Source: Natrinema ejinorense (lineage in GTDB: Archaea; Halobacteriota; Halobacteria; Halobacteriales; Natrialbaceae). Taken from it: a stretch of 64,000 nucleotides of DNA. The translations under genes and the position numbers were made by a program. The DNA is taken from positions 1,054,001 through 1,118,000 of the forward strand of contig NZ_NXNI01000001.1 in the NCBI RefSeq assembly GCF_002494345.1. The letters are read 5' to 3'. Below, piece by piece: positions 38,615 to 44,108 of the stretch. Numbering within the stretch: the stretch's first letter is position 1; every line of letters starts with the position of its first letter. Under the pieces are notes generated by a model. The model did not search any database. It was not told where the DNA came from and worked only from the letters and a program-made list of their open reading frames with translations.

Positions 38615-38632
38615 GTTTCGGAAGTTTCGGAA
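38615..38632 (+). repeat. Tandem 9-bp direct repeat upstream of the Orc gene
   Basis: GTTTCGGAA is repeated twice in perfect tandem, ending about 15 bp before the TTTAAG box of the Orc1/Cdc6 gene. It could bind an activator or Orc itself. It does not match the haloarchaeal origin-recognition-box consensus as I remember it. Confidence 0.45.
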
Positions 38633-38646
38633 CCACCCCGGCGTCG

Positions 38647-38652
38647 TTTAAG
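38647..38652 (+). promoter_or_regulatory. TATA box for the Orc1/Cdc6 gene
   Basis: TTTAAG is centred about 27 bp before the GTG at 38677, supporting a GTG-initiated leaderless transcript. Confidence 0.6.
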
Positions 38653-38676: not shown

Positions 38677-39702
38677 GTGATCGTCGACGGCCGCGTCCTG
38701 CGCGATGATTTCGTGCCCAGCGAGGTGGTCCATCGCCACGACGAGGTAACCCTCCTCTCGGAAGCCCTCGAGCCGCTGCTGTCCGACGGGCGGCCCGATC
38801 CCGCCTTCCTGTTCGGCCCGACGGGCGTCGGCAAGACCTGCATCGCTCGCTACACGCTCGCCCAGTTGCGCGAGCAGGAGCCGACCGTCCGGTTGTCGTA
38901 CGTCAACTGTTGGCAGGAGTATACCCGGTTTCGCGTCCTCTATCGGATTCTCGAAGCGATCGACCGGGCGGTCGATGTCCACCGCTCGACGCCGAAAGAC
39001 GAACTGTTCGAGCGACTCTCGCGGGCCGACGACGGGTCACTCGTCGTCGTTCTCGACGAGGTCGACCAGCTAGAGGAGACCGGCGTGCTGTACGACCTCC
39101 ACCGGCTCCCCCACGTCTCGCTCGTGTTGATCGCCAACCGCGAGGTGGAGCTGTTCGCGAGCTTCGACGATCGGGTTCGCTCGCGGCTCCACGCCGGCAC
39201 CCGGGTCCGATTCGACCGCTACGGCACCGACACGCTCGCGGCGATCCTCGCCGAGCGGACGGACAAAGCCCTCGAGCCGGGCGCTGTGAGCGACTCGCAG
39301 TTGCGAACGATCGCCGACGCGGCCTCGGGCGACGCCCGCGTCGGCATCGGGATCCTCCGGTCGGCGGCCCGGCGCGCGGAGCGACAGGGAGTGGAATCGA
39401 TCACCGACGAGATCCTCGAGGCGGCGATCCCGGACGCCCGGTCGGCGATCCGCCGGAAGACGATCGAGGGGTTGATCGAACACCAGCGAGTGCTGTACGA
39501 CGTGATCGCCGAGGCCGGCGAGATCGAACCGGGAGAACTCTACGCGGCGTACGAACGACGGGTCGACGAGCCGAAGACGAACCGGACGCTGCGCAACTAC
39601 CTGACGAAGATGGTTCACTACGACCTGATCGAGGCCGTCGGCAAGCGGCGGGGCAGAACCTATCGGCTCGTCGACGACGGCGAGCCGGACGGGGATCGGT
39701 GA
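38677..39702 (+). CDS. Orc1/Cdc6-family replication initiator
   Basis: A 341-residue AAA+ protein. After FVPSEVVHRHDEVTLL (the usual N-terminal element), Walker A is GPTGVGKT (47-54), Walker B LVVVLDEVDQL (about 124-134), sensor 1 LVLIANRE, and sensor 2 GDARVGIGILRSAARRAE. The C-terminal winged helix is at about 260-335 (YDVIAEAGEIEPGELYAAYERR). It is shorter than main-origin Orc1 proteins (about 400-560 residues). No origin-recognition-box repeats are seen nearby, so it is probably an accessory paralogue. The start is GTG. Confidence 0.92.
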   Translation: MIVDGRVLRDDFVPSEVVHRHDEVTLLSEALEPLLSDGRPDPAFLFGPTGVGKTCIARYTLAQLREQEPTVRLSYVNCWQEYTRFRVLYRILEAIDRAVDVHRSTPKDELFERLSRADDGSLVVVLDEVDQLEETGVLYDLHRLPHVSLVLIANREVELFASFDDRVRSRLHAGTRVRFDRYGTDTLAAILAERTDKALEPGAVSDSQLRTIADAASGDARVGIGILRSAARRAERQGVESITDEILEAAIPDARSAIRRKTIEGLIEHQRVLYDVIAEAGEIEPGELYAAYERRVDEPKTNRTLRNYLTKMVHYDLIEAVGKRRGRTYRLVDDGEPDGDR

Positions 39703-39769: not shown

Positions 39770-40633
39770 ATGAGCCGATCTCCGACGCTCCCGGCTGGGA
39801 CCCGTCTCGGTCGGACTGCGCTTCGCGTCGCCGACACCGGGCCGATGATCGAGTTCTACCGCGACGTCGTCGGCCTCAGCGTCGCCACCCGAACCGAGAT
39901 CGGGGCGACGCTCGGCGTCGATGGGACGCCGTTGCTCGTTCTGGAAGCCGCTCCGGACACCGAGCCACGCGGCGATCGGGAAGCCGGACTCTACCACAAC
40001 GCCTTCAGACTCCCCTCGCGGCCGGCGCTTGGGGCCGCCCTCGAGCGGATTCGCGACTGCTGGACGCTCGAGGGAGCCTCCGACCACGGCGTCAGCGAGG
40101 CCCTCTACTGTACCGATCCCGAGGGAAACGGCGTCGAACTATATCGCGACCGGCCCCGAGACGCGTGGCCGCGCGCCGACGACGGAACGCTCCGGGCGAC
40201 CGGCGGCCCGCTGGATCTCGCCGCCCTCGCGGCCGCGGCCGACGATGCCACGACGGGGAACGGGTCGCAACTGGCACCCGACGGAACGACCGTCGGCCAC
40301 GTCCACCTCGAGGTATCCTCGCTCGAAGCGGCCCGCTCCTTTTACGCGGAGACGGTGGGGTTCGACGTCTCCATGTCCTACGCGCCGGGATCGCTCTTTT
40401 TCGCGACGGGGGGCTACCACCACCACGTCGGCGTGAACCGCTGGAACGAGCGATCCACGCCGACGGACGGACTGGGGCTGGGGTGGTTCGAACTGCTCGT
40501 TCCGGATGCCGAGGCGGTCGATGCGATCCGGGAGCGGGCGGCCGACGAGGCTACCGTGATCGCGGAGTTCGAGGGCGGCATCGAACTCGAAGATTCGGAC
40601 GGGATCGCGGTTCGGGTCCGGCCCACGGCGTAG
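39770..40633 (+). CDS. Two-domain VOC family (ring-cleaving dioxygenase-like) protein
   Basis: A 287-residue protein with two VOC domains resembling CatE-type extradiol dioxygenases. The opening TRLGRTALRVADTGPMIEFYRDVVGLSV and the second half TVGHVHLEVSSLEAARSFYAETVGF are typical. Candidate metal ligands in the second half are His of GHVHLEV, the YHHHVGVN cluster and a late Glu. Catechol substrates are unproven and no aromatic degradation genes are adjacent. It lies 67 bp after the Orc gene. Confidence 0.82.
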   Translation: MSRSPTLPAGTRLGRTALRVADTGPMIEFYRDVVGLSVATRTEIGATLGVDGTPLLVLEAAPDTEPRGDREAGLYHNAFRLPSRPALGAALERIRDCWTLEGASDHGVSEALYCTDPEGNGVELYRDRPRDAWPRADDGTLRATGGPLDLAALAAAADDATTGNGSQLAPDGTTVGHVHLEVSSLEAARSFYAETVGFDVSMSYAPGSLFFATGGYHHHVGVNRWNERSTPTDGLGLGWFELLVPDAEAVDAIRERAADEATVIAEFEGGIELEDSDGIAVRVRPTA

Positions 40634-40752
40634 CGACGCGGTCGACTTTCGGAAGCGGAAACGGAAATCCAAACCGCGCTCGAGCGACCCGATAGCCGAC
40701 GGTTTCGATGGTCGAGCCCCCATCGGAACTGTTGGAACGCGGGCTCCGTCGC

Positions 40753-40758
40753 TTATGC
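40753..40758 (+). promoter_or_regulatory. TATA box for the RadA-like/PolB2 operon
   Basis: TTATGC lies about 27 bp before the ATG at 40782. An in-frame ATG at 40755 lies inside this box, so 40782 is the better start. Confidence 0.5.
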
Positions 40759-40781: not shown

Positions 40782-41486
40782 ATGCATCAGTTCGACCTCG
40801 AGCCCGGAACGACGCTGCTGAACGTTCCCTCGCCGCGATCGGAGATCGTCCACCGGCTGGTCTGTGAGCGACTGGCCGCGGACGCTGCCGGCGGGTCGGC
40901 CTACTGGATCGACGCGCGCTCGGCCGCATCGGCCCACGCGCTGTACGACTGCGCCTCGAGCCCTCGCGTCCTCGAGAACCTGCAGGTTGCGCGGGCGTTT
41001 ACGGCGTACCAACACCATTCGCTGGTGCGCGACATCGCCAGACGGGCGGAGCCGGGAACGGCGCTGCTCGTCGCACCCAACGTCGCCGCCCCCTACCGGG
41101 ACGACGACCTCGCGGCGTGGGAGCGCGAGCCGTTGCTGGCTGCGACCCTCGAGATCCTCTCGGAGCTGGGTGCGGTACTCGATTGTCCGGTCCTCGTGAC
41201 GAGCGCCGACAGCGGTGGCGAGGACGGCAGCGCCGACGACGCGACCGCTGCTTCCGGACCGGTCGCCGAGTACGCCGACACCACGGTCGACTGCGTTCGC
41301 ACGCGCGAGGGACTCCGGCTCGAGCGTGTGGACGAAGGGGAAGCGACGGGCGCGACGGCGGGGTACTGGCACGGCACCCAGTGGCAGACGACGATCCCCT
41401 ACTGGGTCGAGCTCTGTGGGGCCGTCGACGCGTTCGATCCCGTCGTCGCCGCCCACGATCGCGGGCTGCTCGAGGTGAGCGGCTGA
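40782..41486 (+). CDS. Degenerate RadA/RecA-fold paralogue, first gene of the PolB2 cassette
   Basis: A 234-residue protein that keeps the RadA-like core but not its ATPase residues. LENLQVARAFTAYQHHSLV (64-82) closely matches the RadA/Rad51 'ARAFNxDHQ' segment. The following LLVAPNVAAPYRDDDL sits where Walker B and its 'LIVDSLTxxFR' continuation would be, but the Asp is Ala. The Walker A position (LNVPSPRS, 13-20) has no GKT. CPVLVTSA aligns with the 'VVVTNQ' strand. Its stop overlaps the start of the next gene (TGATG). It is probably a non-catalytic partner of the polymerase. Confidence 0.7.
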   Translation: MHQFDLEPGTTLLNVPSPRSEIVHRLVCERLAADAAGGSAYWIDARSAASAHALYDCASSPRVLENLQVARAFTAYQHHSLVRDIARRAEPGTALLVAPNVAAPYRDDDLAAWEREPLLAATLEILSELGAVLDCPVLVTSADSGGEDGSADDATAASGPVAEYADTTVDCVRTREGLRLERVDEGEATGATAGYWHGTQWQTTIPYWVELCGAVDAFDPVVAAHDRGLLEVSG

Positions 41487-41833
41487 TGGGGCGAACGAAC
41501 CCGACCTACCGCGACGCGATCGGACGAATAGAGTCCGACTGGAGGCCGATGCGCCGGGCGCTGCGCCGGGAGTACCAGTCGGACTTCGATCGGCTGTTCG
41601 ATCGCGCTCGCGACTTCGCCGACGCGGCGGGCTACGCCAACCCGCCGGCACCCGAACGGGCGTTCCTGCTGTCGTTGCTGCTCACTCACGAGGTCGAACT
41701 GCGGCGATTGCGGACGGAACTCGCCGCACGCGAGAACGCGGCGAGCGGGGGCCGCGTCGAGGACGCCGTGAGCCCTGACGACGCGACTGTGAGTCCAGTG
41801 AGCCAGCCCGACGCGACCGAGGACGACGAATGA
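41486..41833 (+). CDS. Small helical protein, middle gene of the PolB2 cassette
   Basis: A 115-residue basic-then-acidic protein. Residues 1-80 are predicted helical (RIESDWRPMRRALRREYQSDFDRLFDRARDFADAAGYAN), and the last 35 residues are a disordered acidic Ser/Asp tail. I recognise no family. Its ATG overlaps the preceding stop and its TGA overlaps the polymerase ATG (ATGA), so all three genes are translationally coupled. It may bridge the RadA-like protein and the polymerase. Confidence 0.72.
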   Translation: MGRTNPTYRDAIGRIESDWRPMRRALRREYQSDFDRLFDRARDFADAAGYANPPAPERAFLLSLLLTHEVELRRLRTELAARENAASGGRVEDAVSPDDATVSPVSQPDATEDDE

Positions 41834-44061
41834 GTCCCTACACGTTCGAATTCGAGGGCGGCGACGTTCGCGAGTGGACGCTGACCGAGGCGGGTGCCGA
41901 GCCGACGACCGTCGCGGACTACACCCCGTCGCTGTTCGTCGGGGGCCCCGACGCCGCGCTCGCGGACCTGAACGATCGCCTCTCCAGTGACCCAAAGGTC
42001 GTCGCGACGGAGCGCGAGCGGTGGGCGACGAGCCTCCACGACGCTCACGCCGGGAAGCGGCGTCACGTCCTGCGCGTCACCCTCGAGCGGGTCGCCGAAA
42101 TTCGGCCGCTGGCCCGCGAAATCCGCGGCGTCTACGAGCGCGAGACCCACGCGCCCGGAACGTTCCGGCTGTTCGACGTCGACCTCGAGCCGGGGTTTCG
42201 GTACTGCCTCGATCGGGACCTCGATCCGACGCCGGCCCGCGACCTGCGGACGCTCCGACTCGCGCTCGACGACGCTGCGCTGGCCGACGGCGACGTTTCG
42301 GCGCTCGAACTCGCGGACGACCGCGTCGACGGCGGCGAACGACGAACGCTCCGGACGCTCCGGCGACGCCTCGAGCGACGGAATCCCGACGCACTCGTCG
42401 TGAGCAACGCGGAGCTGATACCGCTGCTCGAGCGCCGAGCCGAGGTGCTGGGGGTCGATGGCGTTTCCCTCGGGCGGCGTCCGGGGTGGACACGGCTGGC
42501 GAGCGAAAACACGTACGCGAGCTACGGGCGAGTCGGACACTCGCCGGCGCGGTACCAGGTCCCGGGGCGAGCGATCGTCGACGCCTCGAACAGCTTCCTC
42601 TGGCACCAGTCGGGACTGGCGGGGATTCGATACATGGTCGAGCGGACCGGTCGCCCGCTACAGGAGGCGGCGTGGGGGAGCATCGGAACGCTGTTGACCG
42701 CGAGACAGATCCGGCTGGCCCGCCGCGAGAAGGGCGTACTCGCCCCGTGGAACGCGTGGGAACCCGAACGGTTCACCGACGTCGAGACGTTACACGCGGC
42801 CGATCGCGGCGGGTTCACCTTCGCTCCCGAGGTCGGCTTCCACGAAACCGTCCACGAGATCGACTTCGCGTCGCTGTACCCGCGGATCATCCGCGAGCAC
42901 AACGTGAGTCCCGAGACGGTCGACTGTAACTGCGGGGACGACGCACGCGCCGACGGCGTCGACAGCCATCGCGTCCCCGAACTCGGCTACGAGATCTGCG
43001 AGACCGACGGCTTTCTCCCCGCCGTTCTCGACCCGCTCATCGCGGATCGGGCCGAGATCAAGGGACGGCTCGCGGAGGGTCCCGACGAGGCGACGGCCGC
43101 CCGGCTCCGCGCCGAATCGGGTGCGATCAAGTGGGTCCTCGTCGCCTGCTTTGGCTACCAGGGCTATCGCAACGCCAAGTTCGGCCGGATCGAGTGCCAC
43201 GAGGCGATCAACGCCTACGCCCGCGAGATCGCACTCGAGGCGAAGCGGCGACTCGAGGACGCGGACTGGCGGATCGTCCACGGCATCGTCGACAGCCTCT
43301 GGGTGACGCCCCGAGTCGACGCGCCGGAGCCCCTCGCGGACGTGATCGGCGAGGTGTCCGCGCAAGTCGGGATTCCCCTCGAGCACGACGGAAGCTACGA
43401 GTGGGTGTGTTTCGTGCCGCTGCGCGACTCCATCAGGGGTGCCGGCGCTGGCGGGGCTTCGACGGACGGTACCGCGACAGCGGGCGGACCCAACCCGGCA
43501 CGCGGGACCACAACGGCGGGCGCACTCACGAAGTACTTCGGCAAGCGGACGAGCGGCGAGTACACGTATCGGGGACTCGAAGTGCGCCAGCGGAGCGCGC
43601 CCGCGTTCGTCGCGGAGAGTCAACGGGCGTTCGTCGAGACGTTCGATCGCGAACGCGACCCCGAGGCAGTCTGTGACAGCCTCGGCCGACGGCTGAGCGA
43701 ACTTCGCGAGGGGACGGTCGATCCGATCGATCTCGCCGTCACGAAACGGGTCTCGAAATCACTCGGGGACTACAGCCAGCGGACCCACACCGTGGCGGCG
43801 CTCCAGCGATACGAGCGCCGCGGGATCGACCGCCACCCCGGACAATCGGTCGAGTACGTCGTCGTCGACGACGACGCGCGTGGCTCCGAGCGGGTCAGAC
43901 TCGCGCTCGAGGAGCCACGGACGTACGACGCGGACTACTACGCGACGCTGCTCGTCCGCGCCTGTGAGAGCGTTCTCTCGCCCCTGGGCTGGGATCGCGT
44001 TCGAATCCGACGTTCGTTGCGGGACGGGACCGCGGTTCGACTGTCGACGTTTACCGGCTGA
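41830..44061 (+). CDS. Family B DNA polymerase, PolB2 type
   Basis: A 743-residue family B polymerase, smaller than replicative PolB. Motif A EIDFASLYPRII keeps its catalytic Asp345. Motif B is IKWVLVACFGYQGY (Lys434 kept; the usual Asn-Ser and Tyr replaced). Motif C is HGIVDSLW: the first Asp of DTD is Ile but the second, catalytic one (Asp488) is kept. A Cys cluster (DCNCGDD, YEICET) follows motif A. The N-terminal exonuclease motifs are not convincingly intact. The pattern suggests a specialised, perhaps translesion, polymerase without proofreading. The C-terminus carries DYSQRTHTVAALQRYERRG. Confidence 0.88.
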   Translation: MSPYTFEFEGGDVREWTLTEAGAEPTTVADYTPSLFVGGPDAALADLNDRLSSDPKVVATERERWATSLHDAHAGKRRHVLRVTLERVAEIRPLAREIRGVYERETHAPGTFRLFDVDLEPGFRYCLDRDLDPTPARDLRTLRLALDDAALADGDVSALELADDRVDGGERRTLRTLRRRLERRNPDALVVSNAELIPLLERRAEVLGVDGVSLGRRPGWTRLASENTYASYGRVGHSPARYQVPGRAIVDASNSFLWHQSGLAGIRYMVERTGRPLQEAAWGSIGTLLTARQIRLARREKGVLAPWNAWEPERFTDVETLHAADRGGFTFAPEVGFHETVHEIDFASLYPRIIREHNVSPETVDCNCGDDARADGVDSHRVPELGYEICETDGFLPAVLDPLIADRAEIKGRLAEGPDEATAARLRAESGAIKWVLVACFGYQGYRNAKFGRIECHEAINAYAREIALEAKRRLEDADWRIVHGIVDSLWVTPRVDAPEPLADVIGEVSAQVGIPLEHDGSYEWVCFVPLRDSIRGAGAGGASTDGTATAGGPNPARGTTTAGALTKYFGKRTSGEYTYRGLEVRQRSAPAFVAESQRAFVETFDRERDPEAVCDSLGRRLSELREGTVDPIDLAVTKRVSKSLGDYSQRTHTVAALQRYERRGIDRHPGQSVEYVVVDDDARGSERVRLALEEPRTYDADYYATLLVRACESVLSPLGWDRVRIRRSLRDGTAVRLSTFTG

Positions 44062-44108
44062 GTGCCGTCCTGACCGCGTTCCCTCACCGTGGTCGATGCT
44101 CGAAACGG

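Follow-up and report, generated by a model that had tools for sequence, protein, structure and literature searches.

In the 64,000-nucleotide window of Natrinema ejinorense analyzed here (contig NZ_NXNI01000001.1, positions 1,054,001 to 1,118,000), the adjacent genes for iRadA, PPB2, and PolB2 (window positions 40782–44061) very probably encode a PolB2 mutasome, a new member of an already described three-gene set. A linked Orc1/Cdc6 paralogue (38677–39702) is preceded by the same promoter element as this operon and has, judging from sequence, about an even chance of being the operon's regulator. The reading as a whole, a PolB2 mutasome with Orc-controlled, damage-inducible expression, is the one that we somewhat favor. 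It builds on direct observations of gene content, a predicted fold, lost catalytic motifs, co-occurrence, and a shared promoter element preferring these genes. With this locus, a known archaeal mutasome is confirmed in a genetically tractable group, for which no mutagenesis role of the set was found in the literature searched. Its promoter element yields both a candidate regulator and a concrete regulon, namely orc plus iRadA-PPB2-PolB2.

All three genes are on the forward strand and overlap start to stop, exactly as the initial annotation of this DNA had described. The iRadA gene (40782–41486) encodes a 234-residue Rad51-core protein without Walker A and B motifs and without the N-terminal domain of RadA. 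The gene for PPB2 (arCOG07300; 41486–41833) encodes a 115-residue partner with the N-terminal arm MGRTNPTYRD, and that for PolB2 (41830–44061) a 743-residue B-family polymerase. The TGATG at the iRadA stop spans the PPB2 start (1-nt overlap), and the ATGA at the end of PPB2 spans the PolB2 start (4-nt overlap). The position of the iRadA start should be noted. It is placed at the ATG at 40782, not at 40755 as given by the open reading frame caller, since M1 is conserved in the family alignment and the promoter spacing fits (TTAT 29 nt before the ATG). PolB2, iRadA, and PPB2 are each single-copy, with no second copy found in this genome. A PolB2 fragment of 31 residues (74% identity, with a stop) at G000:C1:1327531-1327623 may be what remains of a second copy.

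The AlphaFold model of iRadA (predicted local distance difference test, pLDDT, 86) matches DMC1, RAD51, and RadA in Foldseek at E values of about 1e-10. Superposition on these proteins gives VIA-align Z scores of 18–20 over 181–202 residues, from the ATPase core onward; the alignment to DMC1 begins at residue 106, and there is no N-terminal domain. Single-sequence searches give weak matches (Pfam Rad51 at 1.4e-4, just under the cut-off, and RAD51 chains at 0.002). A profile of 43 haloarchaeal iRadA relatives retrieves RadA structures at 2.6e-13, and hhalign of the iRadA profile with the RadA of the same genome as a single-sequence template gives a probability of 56% (E 1e-4; Orc control, 0.1%). 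A RecA fold is thus predicted by both the structural model and the profile search. None of the 43 family members has a Walker A motif (GxxxxGK[ST]), and the position of the Walker B Asp is occupied by Pro in 39 and by Thr in the other four. The stretch AKAFNSNHQM in the RadA of this genome corresponds to ARAFTAYQHH in iRadA. The proposal of a RadA-fold protein lacking Walker A and the Walker B Asp is therefore borne out by the model and the 43-member alignment. A RadA/Rad51 recombinase with intact Walker A and B was also considered for iRadA and is ruled out, both motifs being lost.

PPB2 has no significant match in Pfam and NCBIfam searches. We counted this family with a core-only profile in which the arm motif is unused, since a count requiring GRT would be circular. 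The profile finds 72 PPB2 sequences, 69 of which carry the GRT arm. Arg3 and Arg9 are invariant in 32 aligned sequences, which were picked by their GRT motif. The assignment of the third protein as a PolB2-type polymerase is supported by Pfam DNA_pol_B (E 1.7e-24), by the NCBIfam subfamily "type B DNA-directed DNA polymerase" (above the cut-off), and by motif C, which reads [HY]GIVDS in each of the 80 family sequences compared, the window copy (HGIVDS) among them. Its model (pLDDT 90) matches archaeal B-family polymerases. The first Asp of motif C is replaced, and the second (Asp488) and Asp345 of motif A are retained. The exonuclease has decayed: the columns of the Exo I D-x-E motif are mixed (Pro, Ser, Asp, Glu, or Thr), and those of Exo II are unconserved. 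In the loop expected to contact PPB2, where the mutasome has a D(K/R) motif, the haloarchaeal members keep the Asp (Asp251, invariant) and vary the next residue (Ala, Glu, Arg, Lys, and others). Of 55 relatives, 45 have a PolB2 tail that ends in [LIMV]xx[FYW], versus 2.7 expected by position (44030–44061 in the window); this may be a weak PCNA-binding tail without Gln.

The three-gene operon, including its occurrence in haloarchaea and its orc neighbor, was described by Makarova 2014 (PMC4104785). Timinskas et al. 2025 named the set the PolB2 mutasome, modeled it as a PolB2-iRadA-PPB2(3) heteropentamer, and compared it with Pol V (PMC11791011). The window locus shares with it the three families, the gene order, the lost catalytic motifs, the MGRT arm, and the orc1/cdc6 neighbor. 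According to the same authors, Escherichia coli Pol V (UmuC-UmuD'2-RecA) likewise combines a polymerase, a small oligomeric arm protein, and a RecA-family subunit, though its polymerase is of the Y family and its RecA is catalytically active. In Sulfolobus islandicus, PolB2 (Dpo2) is active, damage-induced, and the sole source of targeted mutagenesis (Feng 2020, PMC7390963; PMC8764526), and it serves as a lesion-bypass extender (PMC8764526, PMC7390963). In the literature consulted here, damage induction and induced mutagenesis are demonstrated for this species alone. Motif C of the Sulfolobus enzyme contains IID in contrast to IVD in the haloarchaeal member. Halobacterium NRC-1 tolerates the loss of polB2, which was reported to be linked there to an Orc5-clade gene (PMC1906834), and the gene can also be deleted in Haloferax according to an unpublished result that is cited in PMC7776575.

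What is said here on the activity of the polymerase, its induction by damage, mutagenesis, the architecture of the complex, and Orc control of damage genes is carried over from published Sulfolobus work (genetics and biochemistry) or from published models, and the following mechanism is proposed on that basis. The exonuclease-deficient PolB2 would extend past lesions, and iRadA would dock on it like the neighboring subunit of a RadA filament. A PPB2 trimer would put one MGRT arm between PolB2 and iRadA, beside the DNA. The mutasome would be made on demand, with the linked Orc1/Cdc6 paralogue acting as a transcription factor rather than as a replication initiator.

The bacterial ImuA-ImuB-DnaE2 system also combines a RecA-family protein with specialized polymerase for damage mutagenesis, using C-family and Y-family polymerase parts under LexA control. 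The initial annotation had drawn this parallel, which holds as an analogy only: the locus has no homologous polymerase parts. Neither a C-family (DnaE2) nor a Y-family (ImuB) component was found in the cassette, the sole polymerase of which is B-family by Pfam and NCBIfam. The mutasome analogy itself stands, in that the set is mutasome-like, with a specialized polymerase, a catalytically dead member of the RecA family, and a small helical partner, but it is not new, having been published with Pol V as the comparison; ImuA and ImuB are never mentioned in the main text of PMC11791011. Calling the set an archaeal counterpart is too narrow, since it is also present in bacteria.

Across a sample of 117 haloarchaeal genomes the three families do co-occur. 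Full-length PolB2 is present in 60, iRadA in 61, and PPB2 in 62 genomes, and 59 have all three. PolB2 and iRadA are found together in 59 genomes and are both absent from 55, with PolB2 alone in one and iRadA alone in two (Fisher p 9e-30, phylogeny ignored). For 75 of the 81 full-length PolB2 copies, both partners are encoded on the same strand no more than 12 kb upstream. Of all 81 copies, 42 have an orc gene of the present kind at a distance of 15 kb or less, always on the same strand, which makes the linkage strong, though not universal. Two genomes (G090 and G108) have a split mutasome, in which PolB2 lies beside an arm-less PPB2 match and iRadA-PPB2 pairs are at separate sites. These split sets fit the duplicated PPB2, with MGRT on one copy only, and the extra iRadA-PPB2 pairs already reported in haloarchaea (PMC11791011, PMC4104785).

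A natural deletion of the operon is found in a genome of the same species, G024 (L190, G024:C1:1-9000), which is about 95% identical in this region. It lacks exactly window positions 40846–44090, with the flanks 40845 and 44091 directly joined. The near-identical 12-bp sequences CGTTCCCTCGCC and CGTTCCCTCACC are located at the two ends of the deleted segment, and the loss apparently occurred between these near-repeats. The promoter, the first iRadA codons, and an orc gene with 98% identity are retained. This loss indicates that cells can do without the operon in nature, just as laboratory strains with deletions can.

The orc and iRadA genes are preceded by the same tandem GGAA element with the same spacing, GGAAGTTTCGGAACCACCCCGGCGTCGTTTAA at 38620–38651 about 25 nt 5' of the orc1/cdc6 GTG and GGAACTGTTGGAACGCGGGCTCCGTCGCTTAT, which includes the TATA-like CTTAT, at 40725–40756, both on the forward strand. 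Aligned iRadA upstream regions show two GGAA in an 8–9 bp register (GGAA-N4/5-GGAA), followed by 15 bp and CTTAT, whose TT is 28–32 nt (mostly 29) 5' of the start codon. This near-fixed spacing suggests a leaderless haloarchaeal transcript. The strict element is present at 35 of 61 iRadA loci at a nearly fixed distance. The window contains two elements, whereas 0.015 are expected for each window strand after block shuffling. The exact pattern has a single match in the 4.48 Mb genome, before iRadA (control, 0). The relaxed pattern matches seven times (control, 3), two of the matches being those before orc and iRadA in the window; the remaining matches, near the control rate, have no obvious repair gene behind them.

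The preference of the element for these genes is also found when the exact pattern is searched blindly in the 117 genomes, which gives 63 matches versus 10 for a mirror control. Reading the gene behind each match gave orc in 22, iRadA in 18, and PolB2 in two cases, 42 in total, all of them no more than about 50 nt from the start except for L119, where the called start is 130 nt away. Of the 21 remaining matches, eight come from small, incomplete genomes of one genus (g9). In G017 and G006, PolB2 lies 7–9 kb from iRadA and has a GGAA element of its own. In genomes of another genus (g13) that are devoid of full-length PolB2, the element still precedes orc, which points to orc autoregulation. The congener G079, without the operon, has one match before an orc remnant resembling the last codons, followed by a glyoxalase gene (read by eye), and has apparently lost orc. 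The promoter elements are not mentioned in PMC11791011, and no publication on the GGAA element was found in a literature search that covered few subscription papers; as far as the searched literature shows, the element shared by orc and the operon looks new. Many orc promoters (at eight loci) contain an additional inverted TTCCG abutting the TATA-like box, which was not seen before iRadA and is a possible autorepression site.

The orc1/cdc6 gene (38677–39702, forward strand, GTG start) encodes 341 residues with AAA and Cdc6 lid domains (TIGR02928, E 2.4e-58, above the cut-off). The origin recognition box (ORB) of Halobacteriaceae is TT[TC]CACC[GCT]GAAAC[GA][AC] (PMC4164010); its left half is similar to TTTCAC and its right half to GGAAAC. 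The Sulfolobus paralogue Orc1-2 governs both its own expression and that of damage genes by binding ANTTTC in promoters (PMC9738581). The ORB-like half-sites together with this precedent make it the simplest reading that the linked Orc1/Cdc6 regulates its own gene and the operon. It would bind the tandem half-sites just 5' of the TFB-recognition element (BRE)/TATA box of both units. The two systems are alike in that an Orc1/Cdc6 paralogue is tied to damage genes and has the element (in Sulfolobus the DNA damage-responsive element, DDRE) in its own promoter. They differ in that the element here is a tandem GGAA with fixed TATA spacing, the orc gene is linked to the operon, and binding is putative. 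The assembly of the complex in this organism, the identity of Orc as the binding factor, the direction of its regulation, and the response to damage are what we infer.

A second promoter type connects these operons with the ultraviolet (UV) response. The sequence TTTCACTTTCA is the published UV-B motif of Halobacterium promoters including that of radA1 (Boubriak et al. 2008, PMC2556686). Seven operons have no GGAA element and contain a CTTTCAC-type sequence instead, mostly as a tandem repeat close to TTTCACTTTCA. Exact ACTTTCACTTTCA is found immediately 5' of iRadA in five whole genomes; its reversed control is identical to ACTTTCACTTTCA itself and thus uninformative. The radA promoter of the N. 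ejinorense genome also carries ACTTTCACTTTCA, the Halobacterium UV-B motif (G000:C1:3456284-3456296, minus strand, upstream of 2550; L087). The motif thus precedes radA of this organism, part of the PolB2 operons of haloarchaea, and some of the orc genes linked to PolB2, whereas the window operon uses the GGAA element. At the level of sequence, PolB2 operons are therefore linked to a known haloarchaeal UV motif. In L010 and L011, the promoters of the PolB2-linked orc genes are of the UV-motif type, and that of iRadA in L011 is of the GGAA type; such mixed promoters suggest a cascade in some species. We tentatively propose, with somewhat less confidence than in Orc control of the operon, a LexA-free, SOS-like switch in haloarchaea, in which the Orc1/Cdc6 paralogue, a relative of the replication initiators, would read tandem ORB-like half-sites, of which GGAA and TTTCACTTTCA would be two forms. 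It would in this way govern the mutasome as well as its own gene, and radA would be subject to the related UV motif. If so, the logic of Sulfolobus Orc1-2 would be shared by two distant branches of the archaea. The switch would be a candidate answer, now testable, to what controls the haloarchaeal UV response, the motif of which has been known since 2008. The sequence ACTTTCACTTTCA also occurs 5' of a gene of about 482–486 codons, not radA, at seven loci in several genera; this gene is likely a further member of the UV-motif regulon.

Several points weigh against an Orc-controlled PolB2 mutasome. The Fisher values take no account of phylogeny, 39 of the 81 PolB2 copies have no such orc within 15 kb, and G071 and the conspecific G024 have this orc and lack PolB2. 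The canonical clamp motif QxxLxxFF was seen in none of the sampled family tails. The resemblance of the element to the ORB covers a short half-site only, and a factor other than Orc could be the one that binds the element. In that last case the PolB2 mutasome would stand, with a winged-helix regulator or a specific TFB (transcription factor B) as the binder and Orc as a mere regulon member. The abutment of the element on BRE/TATA at a fixed spacing is as expected of any activator, and helix-turn-helix (HTH) regulators adjoin some plasmid copies. However, no gene follows the element more often than orc, which does so also where PolB2 is missing from the genome. In addition, the half-site is similar to the ORB of haloarchaea (PMC4164010), and Sulfolobus employs an Orc paralogue (PMC9738581). 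This makes another binder the less probable choice, though a serious one.

Two further explanations concern the role of the operon itself. Makarova 2014 (PMC4104785), on account of the arORC2 neighbor, put forward a joint role of Orc1/Cdc6 and the operon in replication initiation or origin choice, with PolB2 regulatory and largely inactive. This is improbable, since the Sulfolobus PolB2 is active, is induced by damage, and serves for extension in lesion bypass, the window PolB2 retains Asp345 of motif A and Asp488 of motif C, and the operon is lost in a conspecific genome and absent from many relatives. The patchy presence, even within one species, speaks for the idea that mobile replicons carry the operon chiefly as cargo, in the manner of the mobile mutagenesis modules rumAB/mucAB, and that its role in the host is minor. 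Many copies are plasmid-borne, and those about 45–46% identical to the window copy form a group spread over many genera with transposase-bearing inserts between PPB2 and PolB2. At eleven loci, about 0.7–4.4 kb separate PPB2 (or iRadA) from PolB2, and the inserts tested in gapped loci, several on plasmids, contain genes for transposases of the IS605 or IS1595 type and for HTH regulators, which we excluded from the system. The window copy, by contrast, lies on a 3.99 Mb contig, evidently the chromosome, in an arrangement matching the related genera of its family, and its control element is conserved; we thus regard mobile cargo as unlikely, if slightly less so than a replication role. The PolB2 mutasome with Orc-controlled, damage-inducible expression remains our preferred reading.

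Between orc1/cdc6 and the operon lies a gene for a glyoxalase/VOC-family protein (39770–40633, forward strand; PF00903, E 5e-16). It is present at only one of 80 related loci (L001) and is probably an unrelated passenger.

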